NCBI RefSeq assembly: GCF_016765695.1
Contig: NZ_JAETGO010000022.1
Coordinates: 1-45,253, forward strand
Source: Sporosalibacterium faouarense
Lineage (GTDB): Bacteria; Bacillota; Clostridia; Tissierellales; VENL01
DNA length: 45,253 nt
Direction of reading: 5' to 3'
Under the pieces are notes generated by a model, which saw nothing but the letters and a program-made list of their open reading frames with translations, searched no databases and had not been told where the DNA came from. Numbering within the stretch: position 1 is the stretch's first letter; each line of letters opens with the position of its first letter. Below, in pieces: positions 2,499 to 22,126 of this stretch. The position numbers were made by a program, and so were the translations under genes.

Positions 2499-2705
2499 TT
2501 ATTTATTTATAATATTAACAGCTCCATGTGGACAGTATCTTACACATTTTTCACATCCAATACAGATATCATGGTCTACTTTTGGTGTTTTAGCTTTAAA
2601 AAAACCTAGCTTTTCTTGTTTAATTGCATTAACTGGACATGACTTAACAACTGGACAAAATGGTGATTGATCACACCTTGTTTCATTTATAATCGCTTTT
2701 TTCAT
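2499..2705 (-). CDS. small 4Fe-4S ferredoxin-like protein
   Basis: A 68-residue soluble electron carrier or iron-sulfur protein. The second half has a canonical cluster motif, CIGCEKCVRYCP, with cysteines 48, 51, 54 and 58. The first half carries Cys11, Cys17 and Cys23 in a C-x5-C-x5-C arrangement instead of CxxCxxC, so the first cluster would be non-canonical or absent. The start is ATG behind a strong AGGAGGTG. It is monocistronic, bracketed by its own promoter and terminator. The promoter overlaps a 19-base palindrome of CsoR/CstR type, suggesting control by copper or reactive sulfur species. Its redox partner is unknown; IorAB next door is a candidate. Confidence 0.85.
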   Translation of the reverse strand: MKKAIINETRCDQSPFCPVVKSCPVNAIKQEKLGFFKAKTPKVDHDICIGCEKCVRYCPHGAVNIINK

Positions 2706-2719
2706 CTTTACACCTCCTT

Positions 2720-2738
2720 TATACCCCTACGGGGTATA
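2720..2738 (-). promoter_or_regulatory. CsoR/CstR-family-like operator palindrome
   Basis: TATACCCCTACGGGGTATA is an inverted repeat with 8-base arms around TAC. It lies between the -10 box (2744-2749) and the ribosome binding site of the ferredoxin gene, about where transcription starts. Sites with ATACCCC...GGGGTAT arms are typical of the CsoR/CstR (DUF156) repressor family. No such repressor is encoded in this window. Confidence 0.65.
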
Positions 2739-2743
2739 TTTTT

Positions 2744-2772
2744 ATTATAACATATGTCATTTATAATTCAAA
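2744..2772 (-). promoter_or_regulatory. promoter of the ferredoxin gene
   Basis: On the minus strand a perfect TATAAT (2744-2749) is preceded after 17 bases by a weak -35, TTTGAA (2767-2772). The palindrome immediately downstream would occlude it when bound by a repressor. Confidence 0.6.
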
Positions 2773-2831
2773 CTTAAAATTATTATTAATTGAAGAATTT
2801 GTATATTTGCAAATCAAGTATATTGCTGAAA

Positions 2832-2862
2832 AATTTCGTTCAAGCTGAAGAATTTCGTTCAA
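2832..2862. repeat. short tandem direct repeat
   Basis: AATTTCGTTCAA occurs at 2832-2843 and again at 2851-2862, 19 bases apart, nearly two helical turns. It is in the intergenic stretch 2773-3088, which otherwise shows no gene or structured RNA that I recognise. It may be a protein-binding site or chance. Confidence 0.35.
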
Positions 2863-3088
2863 ACCGAAATTTTTAATTTTGTGTGAATCACTTAGTCAAA
2901 AAAGCAATCAGTTAATATAAATAGAGAAATGGGAAGAGTCATTTTTACCTTGCATAAAGCAGTAAAGTAGCTGAATTGTAGTGTAATGAGAACATGATCT
3001 TACATAAGATTTCAATACATAATCTCTTCATTTATTAAGAGTAGGATAGCGCTTAAAGTCATTAATTATAATAATGAAAATTAAAAAT

Positions 3089-3190
3089 AAGCCCATGATT
3101 TAAATGATATGTTCACCTTATGACTATGATAGATAGTTATAATAATAAAACTATCTATCATAAGAATGAACATATCAAAATCATGGGCTT
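3089..3190 (-). terminator. very long imperfect palindrome acting as terminator of iorAB
   Basis: A 102-base hairpin. The outer arms are 3089-3100 with 3179-3190 (AAGCCCATGATT), the middle arms 3107-3115 with 3167-3175, and the inner arms a perfect 14-base pairing of 3125-3138 with 3149-3162 around an AT loop. On the minus strand it is followed by TTATTTTTAATTTTC and lies 57 bases after the iorB stop. The size is unusual for a simple terminator and is also compatible with a MITE-like element. Confidence 0.7.
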
Positions 3191-3246
3191 TTCTTAATCT
3201 AATATTATATAATCAAATATCTGTATATTATTTAAAGAGATATGCT

Positions 3247-3822
3247 TTAAACTAATTCCTTACCTTTGTTAAAAGCTTTAATATTAATATCTACAAATCT
3301 CTCTTTTACTACCTCTCCAATTACTTTTTCCCAATCAATATTATCAAGATTTAAAGCTTTAACTAAACTTCCAAGCATTACAATATTTTGAGTTTTAATA
3401 TTACCAAGTTCTTTTGCAACCTCGACAGCATTTATCACTGTAATGTCAACTTTAGCTTTTAAATCTTCAATAACATTTTTAGGATATTCAGCTTCACCTA
3501 TTAATACAGGTACTGAAGGAACAGCATGGTCATTAGCAACTACAACGCCTTCTGGTTTCAAATAGTCTATCCATCTTTCTGCTTCCATTTTTTCAAAAGC
3601 AACTATTATATCAGCTTGCCCTTTTCCTATAATAGGTGAATAAACTTTATCACCAAACCTCACCTGTGTAGTAACACTGCCCCCACGTTGGGCCATACCA
3701 TGAACCTCAGACATTTTCACATCGTAACCAGCACTAATAAGTCCTGTAGCCAATACTTTACTAGCTAAAACTGTACCTTGACCACCTACACCTACTAATA
3801 ATATATTTTTAGTTTCTGCCAT
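3247..3822 (-). CDS. iorB: indolepyruvate ferredoxin oxidoreductase, beta subunit
   Basis: Gamma-type catalytic subunit of the 2-oxoacid:ferredoxin oxidoreductase family. With IorA it oxidatively decarboxylates aryl pyruvates to aryl-acetyl-CoA and reduces ferredoxin. I set the start at the ATG at 3822 (MAETKNILLVGVGGQGTVLA) because the nucleotide-binding GVGGQG motif sits at the expected distance. The longer frame upstream overlaps iorA and has no family residues. The product is 191 residues, normal for IorB. GGTGGG lies upstream inside the end of iorA, so the two genes are nearly contiguous and translationally coupled. A large hairpin ends the unit. Confidence 0.93.
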   Translation of the reverse strand: MAETKNILLVGVGGQGTVLASKVLATGLISAGYDVKMSEVHGMAQRGGSVTTQVRFGDKVYSPIIGKGQADIIVAFEKMEAERWIDYLKPEGVVVANDHAVPSVPVLIGEAEYPKNVIEDLKAKVDITVINAVEVAKELGNIKTQNIVMLGSLVKALNLDNIDWEKVIGEVVKERFVDINIKAFNKGKELV

Positions 3823-3823
3823 T

Positions 3824-5599
3824 TTATTCACCCACCTTTTTAATTGCATCAAATGGACAAATTTGAAGACAGACGTCACATCCAACGCACATAGTTTCGT
3901 CAATAATTGCTCCAATACCCTTTTCAAAAGATATTGCAGGACATCCTGCTTTTAAGCAGATTTTACATTCTTTACATGCTTCACTATCTACAACACATTC
4001 CTTTCGATTTAATCCATACTTATCAATTTCATCTTGTTTTGATTTTTTTAATACGCAAGGATACTCAGTTATAATTACAACTGGCTCATCTGTGTTTATT
4101 GCTTTTTCAATAGCTTTTTTTGTTTGATCTAAATCTAATGGGTTTACCTTTTCAATATGTTTAACTCCAATAGCTTCACATACTTTTACAATATCTATTT
4201 GTTCAGCTGGTTCTCCCATCAATGTATATCCAGTACCAGGATTCTCTTGATGCCCTGTCATACCAGTGATTCTATTATCAAGGATAATTGTAGCAGCATT
4301 TCCTTTGTTATAAACTATATCAACCAAGCCAGTGATTCCTGAGTGGAAGAAAGTAGAATCTCCAATAACTCCAAATACCTTTACTCCCTCTCTTCCATTT
4401 ATTTCATTAGCTTTAGCAAATCCGTGTCCTGCACTAATACTAGCACCCATACAAATACATGTATCCATAGTTGATAATGGTGGTGCAGATCCTAAAGTAT
4501 AACATCCAATATCACCTGTAACAACTACGTTTTTCTTTTTACTCAATTCATAGAATAACCCTCTATGAGGACATCCTGCACACATAGTCGGAGGTCTTCC
4601 TACTACATTATCTTCATTTTTCTCTACAGTTTTACTCTTCTTACCTAAGATTGCCTCAGCAATTATATCAGGATTTAACTCTCCTATATTAGGAATAATT
4701 TCTTTTCCAATTACATCTATTCCCATTGCTTTAATCTCAGTTTCTAAGTATGGTTCCAATTCTTCTATCACATATAATTTATCAACTTCATCAGCAAATT
4801 TTCTTATCATAGCCTTTGGAAGTGGGAAAGTGAATCCAAGCTTTAGATATGATACTGTATCACCAAAAACTTCCTTAGCATACTGATAAGCTACCCCTGA
4901 AGTTATTACCCCAATTTTTTTATCGTTCCATTCAAATCTATTTAAAGAACTGTTATTACTATATTCCTCAAGCCTTTTTAACTTATCTTCTACAACAACA
5001 TGTAACTTTTTACCATTTGCTGGAGTAGCAACATACTTAGGAATATTTTTATTGTATTCCTTCATTGGAACCGATTGTCTATCATCAATCTCCACTAATC
5101 CTTTACTATGACAAATTCTTGTAGTTAATCTAAATAAAATAGGTATATCAAATTTCTCACTTATTTCATATGCTTCCTTAACAAAGTCTTTAGCTTCTTG
5201 ACTATCACTAGGCTCAATTAATGCAATCTTAGAAGCTCTTGCATAATACCTATTGTCCTGTTCATTTTGAGAACTATGCATACCTGGGTCATCAGCTGAA
5301 ATTATAATACATCCCCCATTTACTCCAGTGTAACCAAATGTGAATAATGGGTCAGCTGCAACATTTATCCCTACGTGCTTCATAGCTGCTAAAGTTCTAG
5401 CCCCAGCTATAGATCCTCCAATTGCTACTTCTAAGGCAACCTTCTCATTTGGCGCCCATTCTGAATATATTTCTTTATAATTTGCTACGTTTTCTAGTAT
5501 TTCAGTACTAGGAGTTCCCGGATAAGCAGAAGCTAAAGTCACACCAGCTTCATAAGCTCCACGGGCAACTGCTTCATTACCTGTCAAAAGCTTTTTCAT
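3824..5599 (-). CDS. iorA: indolepyruvate ferredoxin oxidoreductase, alpha subunit
   Basis: Large TPP-dependent subunit of indolepyruvate:ferredoxin oxidoreductase, used by anaerobes to ferment aromatic amino acids. The 591 residues match the family's usual length. The N-terminal pyrimidine domain begins at MKKLLTGNEAVARGAYEAG. The TPP-binding core includes GDIGCYTLG and GDSTFFHSG. The C-terminus carries two 4Fe-4S motifs, CKECKICLKAGCP and CVGCDVCLQICP, within about the last 50 residues. The gene directly precedes iorB and follows the phosphotransacylase gene by 114 bases. Confidence 0.95.
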   Translation of the reverse strand: MKKLLTGNEAVARGAYEAGVTLASAYPGTPSTEILENVANYKEIYSEWAPNEKVALEVAIGGSIAGARTLAAMKHVGINVAADPLFTFGYTGVNGGCIIISADDPGMHSSQNEQDNRYYARASKIALIEPSDSQEAKDFVKEAYEISEKFDIPILFRLTTRICHSKGLVEIDDRQSVPMKEYNKNIPKYVATPANGKKLHVVVEDKLKRLEEYSNNSSLNRFEWNDKKIGVITSGVAYQYAKEVFGDTVSYLKLGFTFPLPKAMIRKFADEVDKLYVIEELEPYLETEIKAMGIDVIGKEIIPNIGELNPDIIAEAILGKKSKTVEKNEDNVVGRPPTMCAGCPHRGLFYELSKKKNVVVTGDIGCYTLGSAPPLSTMDTCICMGASISAGHGFAKANEINGREGVKVFGVIGDSTFFHSGITGLVDIVYNKGNAATIILDNRITGMTGHQENPGTGYTLMGEPAEQIDIVKVCEAIGVKHIEKVNPLDLDQTKKAIEKAINTDEPVVIITEYPCVLKKSKQDEIDKYGLNRKECVVDSEACKECKICLKAGCPAISFEKGIGAIIDETMCVGCDVCLQICPFDAIKKVGE

Positions 5600-5656
5600 A
5601 TATTACACCCCTTTATAATTTTTAATAAATTTTATAAACAGTAATATAATTAAATC

Positions 5657-5703
5657 AATACCTAGTCCCACAAAATTAAATAACCATCAAGCTTCTAGGT
5701 ATT
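5657..5703 (-). terminator. weak terminator-like hairpin between ptb and iorA
   Basis: AATACCTAG (5657-5665) can pair with CTAGGTATT (5695-5703) across a 29-base loop, just after the stop of the phosphotransacylase. The following minus-strand sequence is only moderately T-rich. It may give partial termination, so that iorAB is expressed less than ptb. Confidence 0.4.
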
Positions 5704-5713
5704 CATTTTACAC

Positions 5714-6622
5714 TTATTTGTATGCTGCAATTAAACTTCCTAATGCAATGGAATTCAATTTAGCTTCATGGGTATCTGCTCTTGAAACTAAAACTACTGG
5801 AGCTTTTGCACCCATTATAATTCCTGCTGATTCAGCATTGGCAAAGTAAGTAAGACTTTTACCGATACCATTTCCCGTTTCTATATTAGGAACTAAAAGT
5901 ATATCAGCATCTCCAGCTACCTCACTTTCAAACCCTTTCGTTTCTGCTGCCTCTCTAGATACAGCCAGGTCTAATGCGAGAGGTCCATCTATAATAACAC
6001 CTTCTTCAAATTCACCTGCTTCACACATTTGCTTGATTTTATCTGCTTCTACGGTTGCAGGCATCTTAGGATTAACTTTTTCTTTAGCTGCTAAAACAGC
6101 AATTTTAACTTTGTCATTGCCAAGTGATTTTACAACTTTAGCCGCATTTTTAGCAATTTTAACTTTATCATCTAAGCTCGGTGCTAAATTCATTCCGCCA
6201 TCTGTTAAGTAAACTAGTTTATGATATGTTGGAACTTCATAAACCATAACATGACTAAGTAAGCTATCTGTTCTTAATCCATAATCCTTGTTAAGTACTT
6301 GCTTTAATAATATTGAAGTGTCTATAAGTCCCTTCATAATAAAATCTGCTTTCCCACTACTTACATACTTTACAGATATCTCTGCTGCTTCAACTAACTC
6401 TGTAGCCTCAATCTTTTCATACTCATTAATATTTACATTGATTTGTTTTGCAATTTCTTCTGTTTTTGCTATATCTCCAACTAAAATTGGCTCGATAATT
6501 TTCATTTCAGCAGCTTCAACCACCGCTTTCAATACTTCTTCATCCTGACAAGCTGCAACAACGAGTTTTCTAGTAGTTTGTTCTTGTGCCTTTTCTAAAA
6601 GTTCATTTAAAGATTTTATCAC
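5714..6622 (-). CDS. ptb: phosphate butyryl/acetyltransferase family protein
   Basis: A cytoplasmic enzyme that exchanges CoA for phosphate on an acyl-CoA, giving an acyl-phosphate for ATP formation. The 302 residues match phosphate butyryltransferase, and the C-terminal half has the typical phosphotransacylase layout (for example GNGIGKSLTYFANAESAG near residue 250). The start is GTG at 6622 behind GGAGGAG. Its position just before iorAB suggests that its substrate may be the arylacetyl- or branched acyl-CoA made by that enzyme rather than butyryl-CoA. No acyl kinase is nearby. Substrate cannot be read from sequence. Confidence 0.85.
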   Translation of the reverse strand: MIKSLNELLEKAQEQTTRKLVVAACQDEEVLKAVVEAAEMKIIEPILVGDIAKTEEIAKQINVNINEYEKIEATELVEAAEISVKYVSSGKADFIMKGLIDTSILLKQVLNKDYGLRTDSLLSHVMVYEVPTYHKLVYLTDGGMNLAPSLDDKVKIAKNAAKVVKSLGNDKVKIAVLAAKEKVNPKMPATVEADKIKQMCEAGEFEEGVIIDGPLALDLAVSREAAETKGFESEVAGDADILLVPNIETGNGIGKSLTYFANAESAGIIMGAKAPVVLVSRADTHEAKLNSIALGSLIAAYK

Positions 6623-16807: not shown

Positions 16808-17899
16808 TTATTTGTTTCCTAATGATCTAAAAAATCTATACGTCCCTGCCTTAGTCTTAATATAACTAATTAAAAAGCTTCTATAATTCTCCTTTTTTAC
16901 CACTTTACATGTATTTAAGAGAGTATGATTAAATGTATCTCCCTCGTTAAAAGAGAATACATCTGGCATAAAATAATCTTCTACAATCAAGCTTTCAGGA
17001 CTTATCCTACTTTTCCTTAACTTATATAAATAACTTCCTAGATTTGTAATGAAACTCTTATCTTTATAATTGCCAACAAAGTGGTTGGTATCCAAAGCCC
17101 CTCTTAACCCTGCTAAAAAATAGTGATTTGTTGATTCTAGTTCTGAGTCTTCTTTCCTTAAATCATCTTCTCCTAAACTTAAATTATGATTCAGAATTTC
17201 TAAGGACTGCTTCAAAGTTTGAAAGTCATTTCCTAAATACAATCCATTCAATATATTTATTAAAGATATTCGTTTTCTCTCAAAATCAATTGCATAATTT
17301 CCTTCATATGTATCTAATATAAATAGGAAATCAGTGCTGTATTTATCAATAAAATCTTTTTGAGAGAAATGAATTATTTCTTCTTTAATGTCCTCTAATA
17401 TACATTCATAGTCAGTTATCCCATCTAAAATCTCTTGTAATAGCTTAGATAAGACTAAACATTCAAGTATTGTGTTTATATTACCAGTAACACAAACTAA
17501 GTTTTTCAAAATTTGATCTTTAGTCGTCTCCCAGTTTGAATTTGAAGCTACCAAAGGAAATATTCTGCAATAAGAAGAATTATCTGTCTCGTCCCAATAT
17601 ATGTTCGAAGATTTTCTAGTTAGTGCATTTAGCAATGCTTTATTATATCCATGTCTATAGCTATGCCATAACTTCAATTCTTCCTCGAATCTTTTATAAT
17701 CAATTACTGTACCAATAATTTCATTAGAAGGTATTAGAGATTTAATCGTAATGATAACTAATTCAGTTAGATATGACCATTGACCATCTAAATTCTTAGT
17801 TTCATTAGCTCTATCTCTATTTTTTATATATTCCCCATATTTTACTGTATCCTCATAGCATCCATTGTCTATAAATCTTTTTATTATCTCTTCCTGCAT
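16808..17899 (-). CDS. hypothetical protein, possibly degenerate ADP-ribosylglycohydrolase-like
   Basis: A 363-residue soluble, largely helical protein. The segment CRIFPLVASNSNWETTKDQI near residue 110 and the following helices resemble the MR-x-xP-x-G region of ADP-ribosylglycohydrolases, and GLRGALDTNHFVGNY near 285 resembles the family's C-terminal GxxAGAxxG motif. The metal-binding Asp pairs and the usual TH motif are absent, so if related it is probably inactive or altered. This family link is only my reading of short motifs. It starts with ATG behind GGAG. It stands alone between two terminators. Confidence 0.6.
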   Translation of the reverse strand: MQEEIIKRFIDNGCYEDTVKYGEYIKNRDRANETKNLDGQWSYLTELVIITIKSLIPSNEIIGTVIDYKRFEEELKLWHSYRHGYNKALLNALTRKSSNIYWDETDNSSYCRIFPLVASNSNWETTKDQILKNLVCVTGNINTILECLVLSKLLQEILDGITDYECILEDIKEEIIHFSQKDFIDKYSTDFLFILDTYEGNYAIDFERKRISLINILNGLYLGNDFQTLKQSLEILNHNLSLGEDDLRKEDSELESTNHYFLAGLRGALDTNHFVGNYKDKSFITNLGSYLYKLRKSRISPESLIVEDYFMPDVFSFNEGDTFNHTLLNTCKVVKKENYRSFLISYIKTKAGTYRFFRSLGNK

Positions 17900-17951: not shown

Positions 17952-18007
17952 AAAAAAGAGGGGCTACCAAACAATGATTTTAAAATCATTGTATAGCAAC
18001 TCCTCTC
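17952..18007 (-). terminator. terminator of the ECF sigma operon
   Basis: A long stem runs from 17958 to 18007 (GAGG...CCTC with ACAATGATTTT/AAAATCATTGT in the middle and two small bulges), followed by TTTTTT on the minus strand. It ends the sigma/anti-sigma/B-box operon 15 bases past the last stop. Confidence 0.88.
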
Positions 18008-18021
18008 AAATAATTGGCTAT

Positions 18022-18714
18022 TTATGCTTCAACATCACCTTTTTTATGCTTCTTCAGCATCCAAACACCACCAATAATAAGTAGAGCAGGTAAAACTGAG
18101 CTTCTGACCATTCTAATTATATCATAATATATTCTTCCCATGTTCCCGATGTATGATAATCTACTTGCTAATTCATCAAAGAATATTATTCCACCAAATA
18201 TTATTAGGCCTATACCTACATAATAAAGATTAATATTCTTAAGATTAATGTCTAAAATTAAATTATCTTCAACTGATTCTCCTGATTGTAGCCTTTTTCT
18301 AAGGTGATAGCAATCAAAAACACTATAGAACCATATTATAACTGCAAATGCAGTAAAAATCTCACTTGAGAACAGAGAAGAAGATAAGGCAATAGTTAAA
18401 AAGAATCCAATCATAATCTGTATCCCCATTTTCATAAAACCTAGATACATATGACCTGCGCCTGGGATAAATGATAGCACAGTTGACCAAAATTTACTTA
18501 TATTTCTTCCTTGATAGTCCCTACCTTTCTTATGTGAATTAATATTATCTTCTTCTATACTTTGATTTTTAATTACTACTAATCCTCGTTCATTCGCACA
18601 TTCTAAACAGATGATATCTCCATTATTGTTCACTGCGCAATCTTTGCATACACTAGCTCCACAGTCCTGACAAATGAACTTAGCTTTAACATTATCGTGA
18701 TTAATACATTTCAC
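18022..18714 (-). CDS. B-box zinc finger membrane protein
   Basis: The 230-residue protein starts with a B-box-type zinc finger: CxxH...CxxC...CxxC...CxxC within its first 41 residues (CINH, CQDC, CKDC, CLEC). A hydrophobic region follows, beginning FIPGAGHMYLGFMKMG near residue 85 as in TM2-like proteins. Four to five membrane segments follow, and the C-terminus (LLIIGGVWMLKK) recalls LiaI/LiaF-type helices. I use the GTG at 18714, seven bases from GGAGG. It is the last gene of the ECF sigma operon. It may anchor or modulate the sigma/anti-sigma switch, but this is inferred from position only. Confidence 0.82.
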   Translation of the reverse strand: MKCINHDNVKAKFICQDCGASVCKDCAVNNNGDIICLECANERGLVVIKNQSIEEDNINSHKKGRDYQGRNISKFWSTVLSFIPGAGHMYLGFMKMGIQIMIGFFLTIALSSSLFSSEIFTAFAVIIWFYSVFDCYHLRKRLQSGESVEDNLILDINLKNINLYYVGIGLIIFGGIIFFDELASRLSYIGNMGRIYYDIIRMVRSSVLPALLIIGGVWMLKKHKKGDVEA

Positions 18715-18727
18715 TAGAATTCCTCCT

Positions 18728-19201
18728 TTAATCATTTTGTTTTGTTGCCCAATATTCTGATATATATGTTAACCCCTGAGACATTTTACCAAATGGATTA
18801 GTTATTGTCTGACTTATCCCAATCGGCCCTCTAAAAAATACTGATGAAAACTCCTTAAGCCCAGAATCTAGATGTGAAGTATTAAGTGCAACTATAAGCA
18901 ATCCTGCCGCCACTAGACTGAGACCGATTTTACTAGTACTAGTAAAGAATCTAAATTTTGGTGATTTAATAGAATGAATTTTTTCTTCTTCAATTTTTCC
19001 AATTATATTATTAGTAAAATCTGGTGGCGGTGTAACAATTTTATGCTCAGAAAGAATGCTAAAAAGATTTTCATACTCTACATATTCCCCTTTACAAATA
19101 TTACATGCTTCAAGATGCTTATCAATATTAAATAGTTCAATATCTGAAAGTCTCTTTTCAAAGTATAGATCAATCTTCTCTATGACTTGTTTACACTTCA
19201 T
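18728..19201 (-). CDS. anti-sigma factor with zf-HC2 domain
   Basis: A 157-residue membrane-spanning regulator of the ECF sigma factor encoded upstream. Residues 1-45 form a zf-HC2 anti-sigma domain with Cys3, His29, Cys33 and Cys36 (HLEACNIC), the HxxxCxxC zinc motif. One membrane helix lies at about 91-108, and a short C-terminal part of about 50 residues would face outside. It overlaps the sigma gene by 11 bases, so both should be made in fixed proportion. Confidence 0.88.
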   Translation of the reverse strand: MKCKQVIEKIDLYFEKRLSDIELFNIDKHLEACNICKGEYVEYENLFSILSEHKIVTPPPDFTNNIIGKIEEEKIHSIKSPKFRFFTSTSKIGLSLVAAGLLIVALNTSHLDSGLKEFSSVFFRGPIGISQTITNPFGKMSQGLTYISEYWATKQND

Positions 19202-19778
19202 TTTTCATCACCTCCACATCTAATTTTTTAAGTTGATTCTTTAGTATCTTTCTGGCTCTATAAAGCCTAGTTTCAACAGTTTTTTTTGGTATATCCAAAG
19301 CCTCTGCTATTTCCTCGTAACTCATATCATTAAAATGATACATAATCACCACATTTTTATAAATATCCGACATTTCATATATAGTTTTATGTATCTCTTT
19401 GTGCTTCTCTAAATCTATAACTTTTCTCTCAGGCTCCTTATCAGTATCACGTAACTCTTCTATCTGCATTCTATCTAAATATTCATCTAATACATCAAAG
19501 CTTGTTAGCTTAGTCTTTGATTTCTTTCTTTTCCAATCAAGACAAGTGTTAACACCAACCCTATATATCCATGTAGATAATTTACTGTTCCCCTTGAATC
19601 CCTTAATCTCCTTATACACTTTTAAGAAAATCTCTTGAGCTAGATCTTGAGATTCAATATAATCATTGGTGTATTTATATGCCATAGAAAATATTCTGTT
19701 TTTATACATATCAACTAGCTGGGCAAATACTTGTTTATTCTGTTTTTTTAGCTCGGCTATAATATGCTCTTCGTTCAT
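19191..19778 (-). CDS. ECF-type RNA polymerase sigma factor
   Basis: A 195-residue group 4 sigma-70 protein. Region 2 spans about 15-90, including the core-binding segment DLAQEIFLKVYKEIKGF; region 4 spans about 130-190 with the helix-turn-helix YEEIAEALDIPKKTVETRLY. I use the ATG at 19778 (MNEEHIIAELKK), well spaced from AGGTGG; a GTG further up lies in that site. It is second in a four-gene operon after a beta-solenoid membrane protein and directly before its anti-sigma factor. Autoregulation through a CGTC-type promoter at 21164-21192 is suggested. Confidence 0.92.
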   Translation of the reverse strand: MNEEHIIAELKKQNKQVFAQLVDMYKNRIFSMAYKYTNDYIESQDLAQEIFLKVYKEIKGFKGNSKLSTWIYRVGVNTCLDWKRKKSKTKLTSFDVLDEYLDRMQIEELRDTDKEPERKVIDLEKHKEIHKTIYEMSDIYKNVVIMYHFNDMSYEEIAEALDIPKKTVETRLYRARKILKNQLKKLDVEVMKNEV

Positions 19779-19808
19779 TATTGTCACCACCTAATTATGG
19801 AACAGCGA

Positions 19809-21116
19809 TTATCTAATATTTATTTCTATATTACCATTTTTTGTTTCTATTTGAATTTCAACTTCACTTTCTCCCAATTTGCCATCTAAACTATTCTCAG
19901 TTACATCCTCATTAATTTCTAAATCAAAATCAGTATATATTTCTCCGTGCTTTGTATATGCAGAAATTTTTCCCTCTTGGTCTTCAAGCAAATCTATATC
20001 AATATCCCCGAACTCATTGACTATATCAATGTCTCCCTCGATAATATCTTCTGCCCTAACTAAGATTTTGCCATGTCTATTCCTTATATCAATCTCTTTA
20101 TTGGCATCTTTTACTTCTACGTCACCATATTGACTTACAATTTCAACATTTCCATCTATATTATCTACGTAGATTTTATCATGGGAATTTTCTATTTCTA
20201 AATCTCCTTTTACTTCTTCTATATTAATAGCATCATAAGAATTTCTAACTAAGATATTACCATCAACTTTTTTAATATTCACTTCTCCATGCTTATTAAT
20301 AATTTTTACATCTTGTGTCACTTTTTCAACTTCTACTCTATCATAACTATTTGTTACATCAACACTTCCATTGATGCTTCTCAACTCCACCTGACCATGC
20401 TCATTTTCAATTTTAACATTTTTGTTTATTTCCTCTATACTTACATCTCCATAACCATTTTCAACCTCTACTTCAACATCAGGTGGCGTCTGAATGAATA
20501 AAGAAACTCTAATATTACCTATTGTATTATTCCCATTATATGTTTCTACCATCGACTCAATATCTATACGATCTTCCCTTTCACTTATTTCAATAAGCTT
20601 CTCTGATATTTCATCAGCATATTCCTGATCGTTGTAATCCATAGATATCTCTGCTAAAACTTTTATCTTATCTCCTTTTGTTTTTTCTATCTTCACATTT
20701 CCATAAATATTATCAATTGTAATTTTATCTCTATTATTTAATATAATTTCATAATCTTTCGAATAGGTCGAGCTATGACTATAAAAAGGATTTCTACCAT
20801 TAAAGATATTTGATAAATTAAACCTAAATGGTGTAATAGAGAAGCTAACTGTTGATACTACTGAAGTTATTACAATTACAATGATTAATAACACAACACT
20901 TATGCCATCAATAGATGCCTTCACATCTTGGTCTTTCCTATCAAATATTATTTTACTAATTATTATTTCTAAGCCAAATATAATAATAATCGACGGCCAA
21001 AGTAATGAACTTATTAATCTACTATTAAGTTCCAAAAAATTATTGGCTAGGAGAAACCCGCCTAATGCAATTAGCGTAATTGCCAAGGTTATTATTCCAA
21101 TTTTTCTTCGTTTCAT
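19809..21116 (-). CDS. LiaF-like membrane protein with DUF4097-type beta-solenoid
   Basis: A 435-residue membrane protein. Three hydrophobic segments occupy residues 7-105, the first two like the LiaI/LiaF transmembrane unit. The C-terminal part from about 125 to 430 is a right-handed beta-solenoid of the DUF4097 type, in which turns of about 18 residues alternate an HG and a YD corner: IENEHGQVEL, VTNSYDRVEV, IINKHGEVNI, VRNSYDAINI. The start follows AAAGGAGG. It is the first gene of the sigma operon, 30 bases before the sigma gene. It may be the envelope sensor, or the main target of the sigma factor; the sequence does not decide. Confidence 0.86.
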   Translation of the reverse strand: MKRRKIGIITLAITLIALGGFLLANNFLELNSRLISSLLWPSIIIIFGLEIIISKIIFDRKDQDVKASIDGISVVLLIIVIVITSVVSTVSFSITPFRFNLSNIFNGRNPFYSHSSTYSKDYEIILNNRDKITIDNIYGNVKIEKTKGDKIKVLAEISMDYNDQEYADEISEKLIEISEREDRIDIESMVETYNGNNTIGNIRVSLFIQTPPDVEVEVENGYGDVSIEEINKNVKIENEHGQVELRSINGSVDVTNSYDRVEVEKVTQDVKIINKHGEVNIKKVDGNILVRNSYDAINIEEVKGDLEIENSHDKIYVDNIDGNVEIVSQYGDVEVKDANKEIDIRNRHGKILVRAEDIIEGDIDIVNEFGDIDIDLLEDQEGKISAYTKHGEIYTDFDLEINEDVTENSLDGKLGESEVEIQIETKNGNIEINIR

Positions 21117-21163
21117 AAACTACCTCCTTTATCTTTCTTTATTTATTTACCTCTCATTAATTA

Positions 21164-21192
21164 TAGACGATTACTTTTTATAAAACCCTTCA
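21164..21192 (-). promoter_or_regulatory. candidate ECF sigma promoter of the sigma operon
   Basis: On the minus strand TGAAGG (21187-21192) is followed after 17 bases by CGTC (21166-21169) and TATAAT-like sequence. Firmicute ECF promoters typically pair a GAAAC-like -35 with a CGTC/CGTA -10. An analogous TGGAAC-17-CGTC lies upstream of the PrcB lipoprotein gene. A vegetative TATAAT (21160-21165) overlaps, so this is suggestive only. Confidence 0.45.
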
Positions 21193-21406: not shown

Positions 21407-22060
21407 CTAATAAGTGTGTTGTTTAGATTGAAAATCATTATAAAATTCATTTCTAAACTCAAGAACTCTATTTGAATAAGAGCTTATAGCTGGGTTTTGC
21501 CTAGTGCTCCTAGAGGCCATATACTTCTTAAGTCCATATGCTCCTCTGTTATAAGCTGTTAGTACCTTATGTACGTCATTATCAAATATTTTATTTAGAT
21601 ACTTAAGCTGAGTAGTGAACAATTTAATATTATATCTAGGTATAAACAACATATCAGGTTCATACTCTAAATCTAAGTTCTCAGCAATAGGTCTTGCAGT
21701 ATTCTCCATTAATTGTCCCAAGCCTCTCTCTCCTAATGAGCCTACTGCCCTTGTATCAAATCTACTTTCTAACTTCATTAATCCTAATACTAAAAATACA
21801 TCTAATTCCTTTGATTCACATTCTTCTAATAAAAATTTTGAGTCTTCCTTTGAAAGCCCAGAAGCATCTGAAATGAAATCTATCTTATTATTGTCGTCTC
21901 TATAAATATATGCCATAATTTCATCAACACTAGCCTGATCAAATATTATTCCCGTAGTATATAATCTATCTTCTGCATCAGAATGCTTAGCTCCGTATAC
22001 ATTACTACTTAATAACAGAGTCATAAATGGAATTAAGATGTATAAAAGTTTCTTTTTCAT
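21407..22060 (-). CDS. secreted lytic transglycosylase (Slt/MltC-like domain)
   Basis: A 217-residue exported peptidoglycan lytic transglycosylase that would cleave glycan strands with formation of anhydro-muropeptides. A signal peptide spans 1-23 (MKKKLLYILIPF...YGA). The catalytic domain has MKLESRFDT with the acid Glu98, the ESR motif followed by GLGQLM near 113, and AYNRGAYG near 172, the usual order of family 1. I use the ATG at 22060 because it gives a clean signal peptide and follows GGAAG. It is monocistronic with its own strong promoter and terminator. Confidence 0.88.
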   Translation of the reverse strand: MKKKLLYILIPFMTLLLSSNVYGAKHSDAEDRLYTTGIIFDQASVDEIMAYIYRDDNNKIDFISDASGLSKEDSKFLLEECESKELDVFLVLGLMKLESRFDTRAVGSLGERGLGQLMENTARPIAENLDLEYEPDMLFIPRYNIKLFTTQLKYLNKIFDNDVHKVLTAYNRGAYGLKKYMASRSTRQNPAISSYSNRVLEFRNEFYNDFQSKQHTY

Positions 22061-22097
22061 TATTTTCACTTCCTTTCCATTTTTTCGCACGAGACTC

Positions 22098-22126
22098 ATT
22101 ATATAAATAAATAATCATGCCGTCAA
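22098..22126 (-). promoter_or_regulatory. strong promoter of the lytic transglycosylase gene
   Basis: On the minus strand TTGACG (22121-22126) is followed after 17 bases by a perfect TATAAT (22098-22103), 37 bases before the start codon. Confidence 0.8.

Follow-up and report, generated by a model that had tools for sequence, protein, structure and literature searches.

The extracytoplasmic function (ECF) sigma factor SigW of Bacillus subtilis recognises promoters of the type TGAAAC-N16-CGTA and controls the yvlABCD genes, and its anti-sigma factor RsiW is cut by PrsW and RasP. To our knowledge, the usual description of an ECF pair is one of two genes, with the anti-sigma factor as the only sensor. 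Here we analyse a four-gene locus of Sporosalibacterium faouarense (Tissierellales) in which a SigW/RsiW-type pair (SIG and ANTI) is flanked by the genes of two membrane proteins, the beta-solenoid protein SOL and the B-box zinc-finger protein BBOX. The locus lies on contig NZ_JAETGO010000022.1 (C28 of the 99 contigs of this 4.1 Mb genome; G+C content 27-34% in 2-kb steps), all 45,253 nucleotides of which were analysed and are called the window below. With a probability of about 0.7, we read it as an autoregulated envelope-stress operon in which the pair has two co-transcribed Lia/Psp-like membrane partners and which would most likely activate itself upon envelope damage.

Like SigW and RsiW, the pair consists of an ECF sigma factor and an RsiW-like zf-HC2 anti-sigma factor with a single transmembrane (TM) helix. 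The promoter-like site of the locus has the same 16-nucleotide spacer and a CGT -10 element, and a PrsW homologue is encoded in the genome (E = 9.7e-45). The locus differs from the SigW/RsiW system in its -35 element (TGAAGGG), in the two Lia-like membrane genes within the operon and in a sigma factor that scores under the SigW equivalog cut-offs. SOL shares with the LiaF and LiaG proteins of the LiaFSR system a LiaI-LiaF-like TM region and a LiaG-like C-terminal stretch. However, it has three TM segments and a long repeat solenoid and scores below the curated cut-offs, and the operon contains no two-component genes.

The passages available to us of Ravi et al. (2024; PMC11237479) describe Toastrack/LiaI-LiaF-TM/B-box neighbourhoods that include an operonically linked sigma factor, and name a four-gene context centred on DUF2089 (ZnR-HTH-SHOCT). 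The sequence-only reading, an earlier annotation made from the letters of the window, had called the locus an undescribed signalling module; the module is indeed a conserved one, but in view of these neighbourhoods "undescribed" was too strong as to its kind. Unlike the DUF2089 context, the window locus has no DUF2089 gene; the term "anti-sigma" does not occur in the main text of PMC11237479, whose available passages mention neither promoters nor two gene orders. No description of the operon was found in the open literature, as far as the accessible parts of the sources go, and PMC11237479 alone touches the gene combination, as compared with PMC9239133, PMC7406223 and PMC7438776. For the three ECF sigma factors of C. 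difficile, consensus sequences were still to be identified according to the accessible part of PMC7438776. A separate locus of the genome of the window (L051, positions 4060-6268; contig C73), in which a DUF2089 gene is followed by the genes of two SHOCT-type proteins, a SHOCT-Toastrack protein first and then another SHOCT-like one, resembles the DUF2089-Toastrack context in those passages of Ravi et al. (PMC11237479).

The sigma factor, the anti-sigma factor and the B-box protein

SIG contains Sigma70_r2 (PF04542; 63.6 bits, E = 1.5e-17) and r4_2 (PF08281; 57.7 bits, E = 9.4e-16), both above the cut-offs and joined by a linker, which is the arrangement of the ECF (group IV sigma-70) factors, and the best PDB match of its profile was SigW (5wuq_A, E = 2.2e-48). 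ANTI carries the zf-HC2 domain (PF13490) that the sequence-only reading had assigned to it, with a score of 22.3 against a cut-off of 22.2. It has the build of the class I (zf-HC2) membrane anti-sigma factors, an HxxxCxxC zinc domain followed by a TM helix. This motif was found in 57 of 62 ANTI relatives, hydropathy gave one TM helix in 14 of 15 ANTI proteins, and the outer tail is about 50 residues long. Among solved structures, the ANTI profile matched RsiW (5wuq_C; E = 8.7e-14) alone at E <= 0.01.

The BBOX open reading frame (ORF) of 237 amino acids codes for a B-box finger (zf-B_box, PF00643; 24.9 against a cut-off of 24.1), followed by a TM2-like segment and another two TM helices. The TM2 domain (PF05154) was not matched by the BBOX protein of the window; among the 14 family members of alignment A4 it was found in two, and DUF6677 in eight. 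A B-box-type cysteine pattern is present in 15 of the 66 BBOX/TM2 proteins, all from loci with the gene order of the window (order A, below). The finger that the sequence-only reading had placed in a terminal membrane protein is thus present in the window and lacking in most relatives. Judged from these sequences, the B-box is an optional add-on of the family, whereas the TM2 segment and a LiaF-like TM pair are its constant part. Homology between this C-terminal TM pair and the TM pair in SOL is weak, with an hhalign probability of 41% (E = 2.8e-4) for one cut and 8% for another, an anti-sigma control giving 17%.

The solenoid protein

The LiaF-like helices noted earlier at the N-terminus of SOL correspond to a match to the LiaI-LiaF TM region (PF18917, E = 2.8e-5), which recurs at E <= 0.01 in 14 of the 15 members of alignment A1 (the window protein and 14 relatives), the window protein included. 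SOL nevertheless falls outside the LiaF family, with scores below the cut-off of 27 for both PF18917 (24.6) and PF22570 (21.1), and the LiaF-like C-terminal domain PF09922 was absent from the window protein in the domain search. Its C-terminal end resembles LiaG (partial NCBIfam match, residues 304-432, E = 3.3e-12), with a score of 46.2 against the LiaG equivalog cut-off of 285. The Toastrack/DUF4097 domain (PF13349) was not matched by the window SOL in the Pfam search and was matched by two of the 15 A1 members (best value 3.5e-15).

Between residues 222 and 348, corners follow one another every 18 residues (YG, HG, YD, HG, YD, HD, YG, HG), and their spacing is looser beyond residue 348. The self-identity of the protein peaks at lags of 36 (0.232) and 18 (0.181), above the 99.9% value of shuffled sequences (0.168), and these two peaks are those of the H/Y corner alternation, in agreement with the HG/YD repeat first seen by eye. 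All gaps of more than six columns in the solenoid part of A1 are multiples of 18 (18, 36, 90 or 108 residues), which indicates that whole coils have been gained and lost.

Hydropathy gave three TM segments in all 15 A1 proteins, and the predicted inner loops are richer in lysine and arginine in 14 of them, with one tie. By this simple prediction, the solenoid would lie outside the cell, and SOL might then be a dedicated sensor, the outer HG/YD faces of which bind a ligand (an antimicrobial peptide, lipid II or a wall fragment) and signal via the TM segments to ANTI. The three TM segments with their positive-inside pattern and the regular coil, varying in copy number by steps of 18 residues, would suit such a sensor, but nine modules have the TM part of SOL only, the SOL of order B (below) mostly carries a short, non-repetitive domain, and one genome, G017, keeps SOL without the sigma factor. 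We regard a dedicated sensor as rather unlikely.

A scan of genome contigs with the solenoid of this single protein found no relative. The A1 profile offered no stretch conserved enough for such a scan, and a closer set, A5, was used instead; its three named relatives are a Tissierellales metagenome-assembled genome, a Thermohalobacteraceae metagenome-assembled genome and Thermohalobacter berrensis CTT3, the last of which carries the module (L085/G038). The SOL sequence alone matched no solved structure. The SOL profile matched a LIM-domain chain (9e5c, E = 3.3e-13, in five stretches), which was rejected as a match of repeat against repeat, and gave one further match at chance level.

Linkage of the four genes

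In a first survey, SOL was matched at E <= 1e-3 in 27 of 60 relatives. Searches with an N-terminal SOL profile, built from order-A proteins, gave 62 places in Tissierellales, of which 37 were read with their neighbourhoods (the window, L035-L050 and L116-L135) and 25 are known by coordinates. In a class-wide sample they gave 56 places, of which 40 were retrieved, two were already in the set and 14 low-scoring ones were left out. Modules of this kind are present in numerous clostridia, within Tissierellales and across the class. Some loci come from close relatives, so that the counts are not independent events.

Besides the window, 76 SOL loci were annotated, and SIG is present in 68 of them, SIG and ANTI in 62, SIG and BBOX in 63 and all four genes in 59. 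At least three of the eight loci without SIG lie at contig ends (L122, L152 and L178), and two of the six loci with SIG and no ANTI match end there; in L166, L174, L175 and L183, a gene of 90-187 amino acids follows SIG, with the HxxxCxxC motif in two cases and without it in two. The gene order of the window is kept in its relatives: among the 16 Tissierellales matches with a long SOL (window included), 15 have SOL-SIG-ANTI and 14 all four genes. The exceptions are a contig that ends after ANTI and G017, which has no SIG, ANTI or BBOX at the locus.

The linkage is reciprocal. A sigma profile searched against 248 Tissierellales genomes (E <= 1e-45) matched 66 times, in 60 genomes. SOL stands within 4 kb of 57 of these 66, and conversely 57 of the 62 SOL matches have SIG at that distance or nearer; both are matched in 58 genomes. 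Of the nine sigma matches that miss SOL, G207 has a complete module on inspection, and in G217 SOL lies on another contig. The other seven score at most 165.4 bits (module sigma factors go down to 157.8), and one of them, in the genome of the window, belongs to another operon, L194. The five SOL misses include G017 and G217.

L194 (positions 2667-5833; contig C87) is a second SigW-like ECF operon, with genes for a sigma factor, a zf-HC2 anti-sigma factor, a protein weakly similar to bactofilins (PF04519, E = 0.046) and a protein of the Toast_rack_N type, and thus another pairing of an ECF sigma factor with a Toastrack-type protein.

Two gene orders

The modules occur in two orders, SOL-SIG-ANTI-BBOX (order A) and SIG-ANTI-TM2-SOL (order B), which are about equally common among the SIG-bearing loci read (33 and 36, respectively). 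The solenoid-first order emphasised by the sequence-only reading is therefore a conserved feature of order A and not of the module as such. Order B was found in the 21 Tissierellales loci L050 and L116-L135, with the exception of L122, which starts inside the TM2 gene at the start of its contig. In a tree of 68 module sigma factors (that of L148, which looks broken, was excluded by the length filter), one branch with a support of 100/98 parts the 33 order-A rows from the 35 order-B rows. The order thus changes once on the tree, whereas shuffled labels need 22.9 changes on average, and a single move of SOL between the operon ends suffices, the parts having stayed together. A long SOL of 364-468 amino acids in three order-B modules (L145, L146 and L148) indicates that the length of SOL can be separated from the gene order. 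As far as the loci can be compared by sequence, the constant core is made up of SIG, ANTI, the TM2/LiaF-like protein and the TM helices of SOL, the B-box and the solenoid being variable.

Seven modules of family f39 (L150, L151, L154, L156, L158, L177 and L179) have a gene of 217-231 amino acids between SOL and SIG, which in the one tested (L150, 3132-3788) codes for a HAD-type hydrolase. In f39 modules, a site of the TGAAG type, with CGT as its -10 element, lies further downstream, apparently 5' of SIG. Four order-B loci (L118, L120, L121 and L130) adjoin a second, divergent ECF sigma gene (~160 amino acids) and an anti-sigma-like gene (292-299 amino acids).

The promoter footprint

TGAAGGG-N16-CGTCTA, which lies upstream of SOL and corresponds to the CGTC-type promoter suggested beforehand, is the sole match to this pattern in the window at 0-2 mismatches. 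TGAAGGG-N16-CGTC is found 5' of SOL in most Tissierellales order-A loci, and order-B loci of Tissierellales mostly have TGCAGTA-N16-CGTT 5' of SIG. The common pattern TGNAGNN-N15-17-CGT precedes the first gene in 45 of the 69 modules with SOL and SIG, window included (order A, 16 of 33; order B, 29 of 36), as compared with 18 of the 474 upstream regions of other mechanically called ORFs at the same loci and none of the eight SOL loci without SIG. The -35 element starts with TGAAG at all 16 order-A sites, and at the 29 order-B sites with TGCAG (22) or TGAAG (7), and in part it follows the sigma clade. Among the loci that miss the pattern, the motif stands before the true start in L124, L130, L132 and L173 and has a one-base change in L040 and L044; reading of the upstream regions of L045 and L049 revealed no motif, and many f39 upstream regions apparently contain another ECF-like motif (by eye). 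The footprint in relatives is strong evidence, although not proof, that the module is autoregulated by its own sigma factor. A generic sigma-70 promoter scan was uninformative (33 sites, 22.7 being expected by chance).

It may be asked whether the four genes are neighbours merely through a conserved Tissierellales neighbourhood, since in most Tissierellales order-A loci the module is preceded, at a distance of one or two genes, by a gene of 566-584 amino acids (argS by eye) and followed by a conserved gene of no assigned family. However, order-B modules and modules of other orders have other neighbours, the same parts are kept when the gene order is permuted, and the promoter-like site precedes the first gene far more often than in the controls. 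Chance synteny, highly improbable in our estimation, was rejected on the order split of the sigma tree and the reciprocal linkage of SOL and SIG.

Proposed mechanism

In the resting cell, ANTI, held in the membrane by its one helix, would bind SIG via its cytoplasmic zinc domain, and SOL and the TM2/LiaF-like protein would stand beside ANTI and set its sensitivity. A disturbance of the membrane or wall would lead to the destruction of ANTI, probably by a PrsW-type protease and then a site-2 protease, and the freed SIG would transcribe the operon from the TGAAGGG-N16-CGTC promoter. The additional membrane proteins would buffer the damage and at the same time complete the feedback loop. We infer the outside position of the solenoid, complex formation with ANTI, the proteolytic activation, the envelope-stress signal and any targets outside the operon, the sensing and proteolysis from the biology of SigW and RsiW and from the PrsW homologue.

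Several results weigh against an autoregulated envelope-stress operon of this kind. SIG scores 146.1 against the SigW equivalog cut-off of 209 (NF007223) and 125.8 against that of 243.1 (TIGR02948), and is thus a relative of SigW and not SigW itself, and the PrsW homologue could serve the other sigma pair of the genome, that of L194. The SOL profile (E <= 1e-5) matched 59 of the 249 Tissierellales genomes, the majority being without a match, and 55 of the 391 genomes of the class-wide sample. Hydropathy gave two TM segments in seven of the ten order-B SOLs of alignment A7 and three in the other three, which makes an outside location less sure in order B, and nine modules that keep the sigma factor carry the TM part of SOL alone (ORFs of 102-157 amino acids). 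In most order-B SOLs, the place of the repeat solenoid is taken by a short domain without repeats. G017 keeps SOL without SIG, ANTI or BBOX (L049), which is easier to reconcile with an effector than with a sensor. As regards the regulon, the genome of the window has a single promoter match at up to one mismatch, at the operon itself, and two sites at up to two mismatches, as compared with three for the reversed control. In 17 genomes, 26 matches at up to one mismatch were found against 16 for the reversed pattern; 12 of them are the module promoters, and the remaining 14 do not exceed the control and lend no support to a wider regulon.

The role of the two membrane proteins can be seen in another way. 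Like LiaI/LiaH or YvlB, which are regarded as co-induced envelope stabilisers, SOL and the TM2 protein may be effectors only, with no part in sensing, ANTI alone sensing the stress through its proteolysis. The persistence of SOL in G017 without its partners, the promoter-proximal position of SOL in order A, which would give it the highest dose, and the variation of the solenoid by whole 18-residue coils, as might be expected of a scaffold, are in keeping with this, as is the two-hybrid network in which B. subtilis YvlB interacts with PspA/LiaH (PMC9239133, accessible part). On the other hand, the link to a single group of sigma factors (57 of 66) is closer than would be required for effectors, the outer tail of ANTI leaves little room for sensing alone, and the nine TM-only SOLs suggest a membrane partner and not a protective coat. 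We consider an effector-only role quite possible, if somewhat short of an even chance.

A more specific form of the proposed operon is a three-part clostridial ECF receptor, in which the LiaF-like and the TM2/LiaF-like TM proteins jointly gate the SigW/RsiW-type pair and an exchangeable outer domain (long solenoid, short or none) tunes the sensing, the operon being rearranged as a unit and its autoregulatory promoters rewritten in step with the sigma factor. We put this forward tentatively, with the odds against it.

One clostridial sigma group is accompanied by a closely linked pair of Lia/Psp-like membrane proteins, and the module thereby ties two fields of envelope stress that have been studied separately, the SigW type and the Lia/Psp type, into one operon. 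It also provides a footprinted promoter, and its natural variants (with a solenoid, a short domain or none) form a series in which the tuning of an anti-sigma factor by membrane partners can be tested.

Layout of the locus and neighbouring genes

All four ORFs were located on the minus strand, in the transcription order SOL-SIG-ANTI-BBOX that the sequence-only reading had given, and their coordinates are listed in the table together with those of adjoining features. SOL and SIG are separated by 18 bases and SIG and ANTI overlap by 11, whereas ANTI and BBOX overlap or are 13 bases apart, depending on the BBOX start chosen. The terminator-like hairpin lies directly 3' of BBOX.

Table. Features of the SOL-SIG-ANTI-BBOX locus and its neighbours (positions in the window)
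Feature	Position	Strand	Description
Lytic-transglycosylase-like gene	21407-22099	minus	small; PF01464, E = 4.6e-18; 5' of the module promoter
Promoter TGAAGGG-N16-CGTCTA	21164-21192	minus	putative, ECF-type, autoregulatory; 5' of the first gene
SOL	19809-21116	minus	435 amino acids; three TM segments, LiaI-LiaF-like N-terminus, beta-solenoid of 18-residue coils, LiaG/Toastrack-like end
SIG	19191-19790	minus	199 amino acids; ECF sigma factor, SigW type; likely start ATG at 19778 (alignment)
ANTI	18728-19201	minus	157 amino acids; zf-HC2 anti-sigma factor, one TM helix, short outer tail
BBOX	18022-18735 (ORF); likely 18022-18714	minus	237 amino acids (ORF); B-box zinc finger at the N-terminus, then a TM2-like segment, with a LiaF-like TM pair at the C-terminus; GTG at 18714, preceded by AAAGGAGG, is the likely start
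Terminator-like hairpin and U-run	17956-18007	minus	fold -27.6 kcal/mol, z -6.3
Downstream gene	16808-17899	minus	363 amino acids

The gene downstream of the module has no convincing family in Pfam or NCBIfam, and its product is 31-49% identical across 12 aligned relatives. In eight of 15 order-A relatives of Tissierellales, a gene of 212-243 amino acids stands where the window has the lytic-transglycosylase-like gene (by position only).

The four exact promoter matches outside the modules are two sites common to the close relatives G010 and G026, one before an Rce1-like protease gene (assigned by Pfam in G010) and one before an HlyD-like gene (by eye). A one-mismatch site in G038 precedes an HlyD-type gene (Pfam), and further non-module sites are present in G001 and, before a gene that by eye resembles glycosyltransferase genes, in G026. 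All of these are leads only, the best being the sites at the Rce1-like, HlyD-like and HlyD-type genes, which would fit envelope defence.

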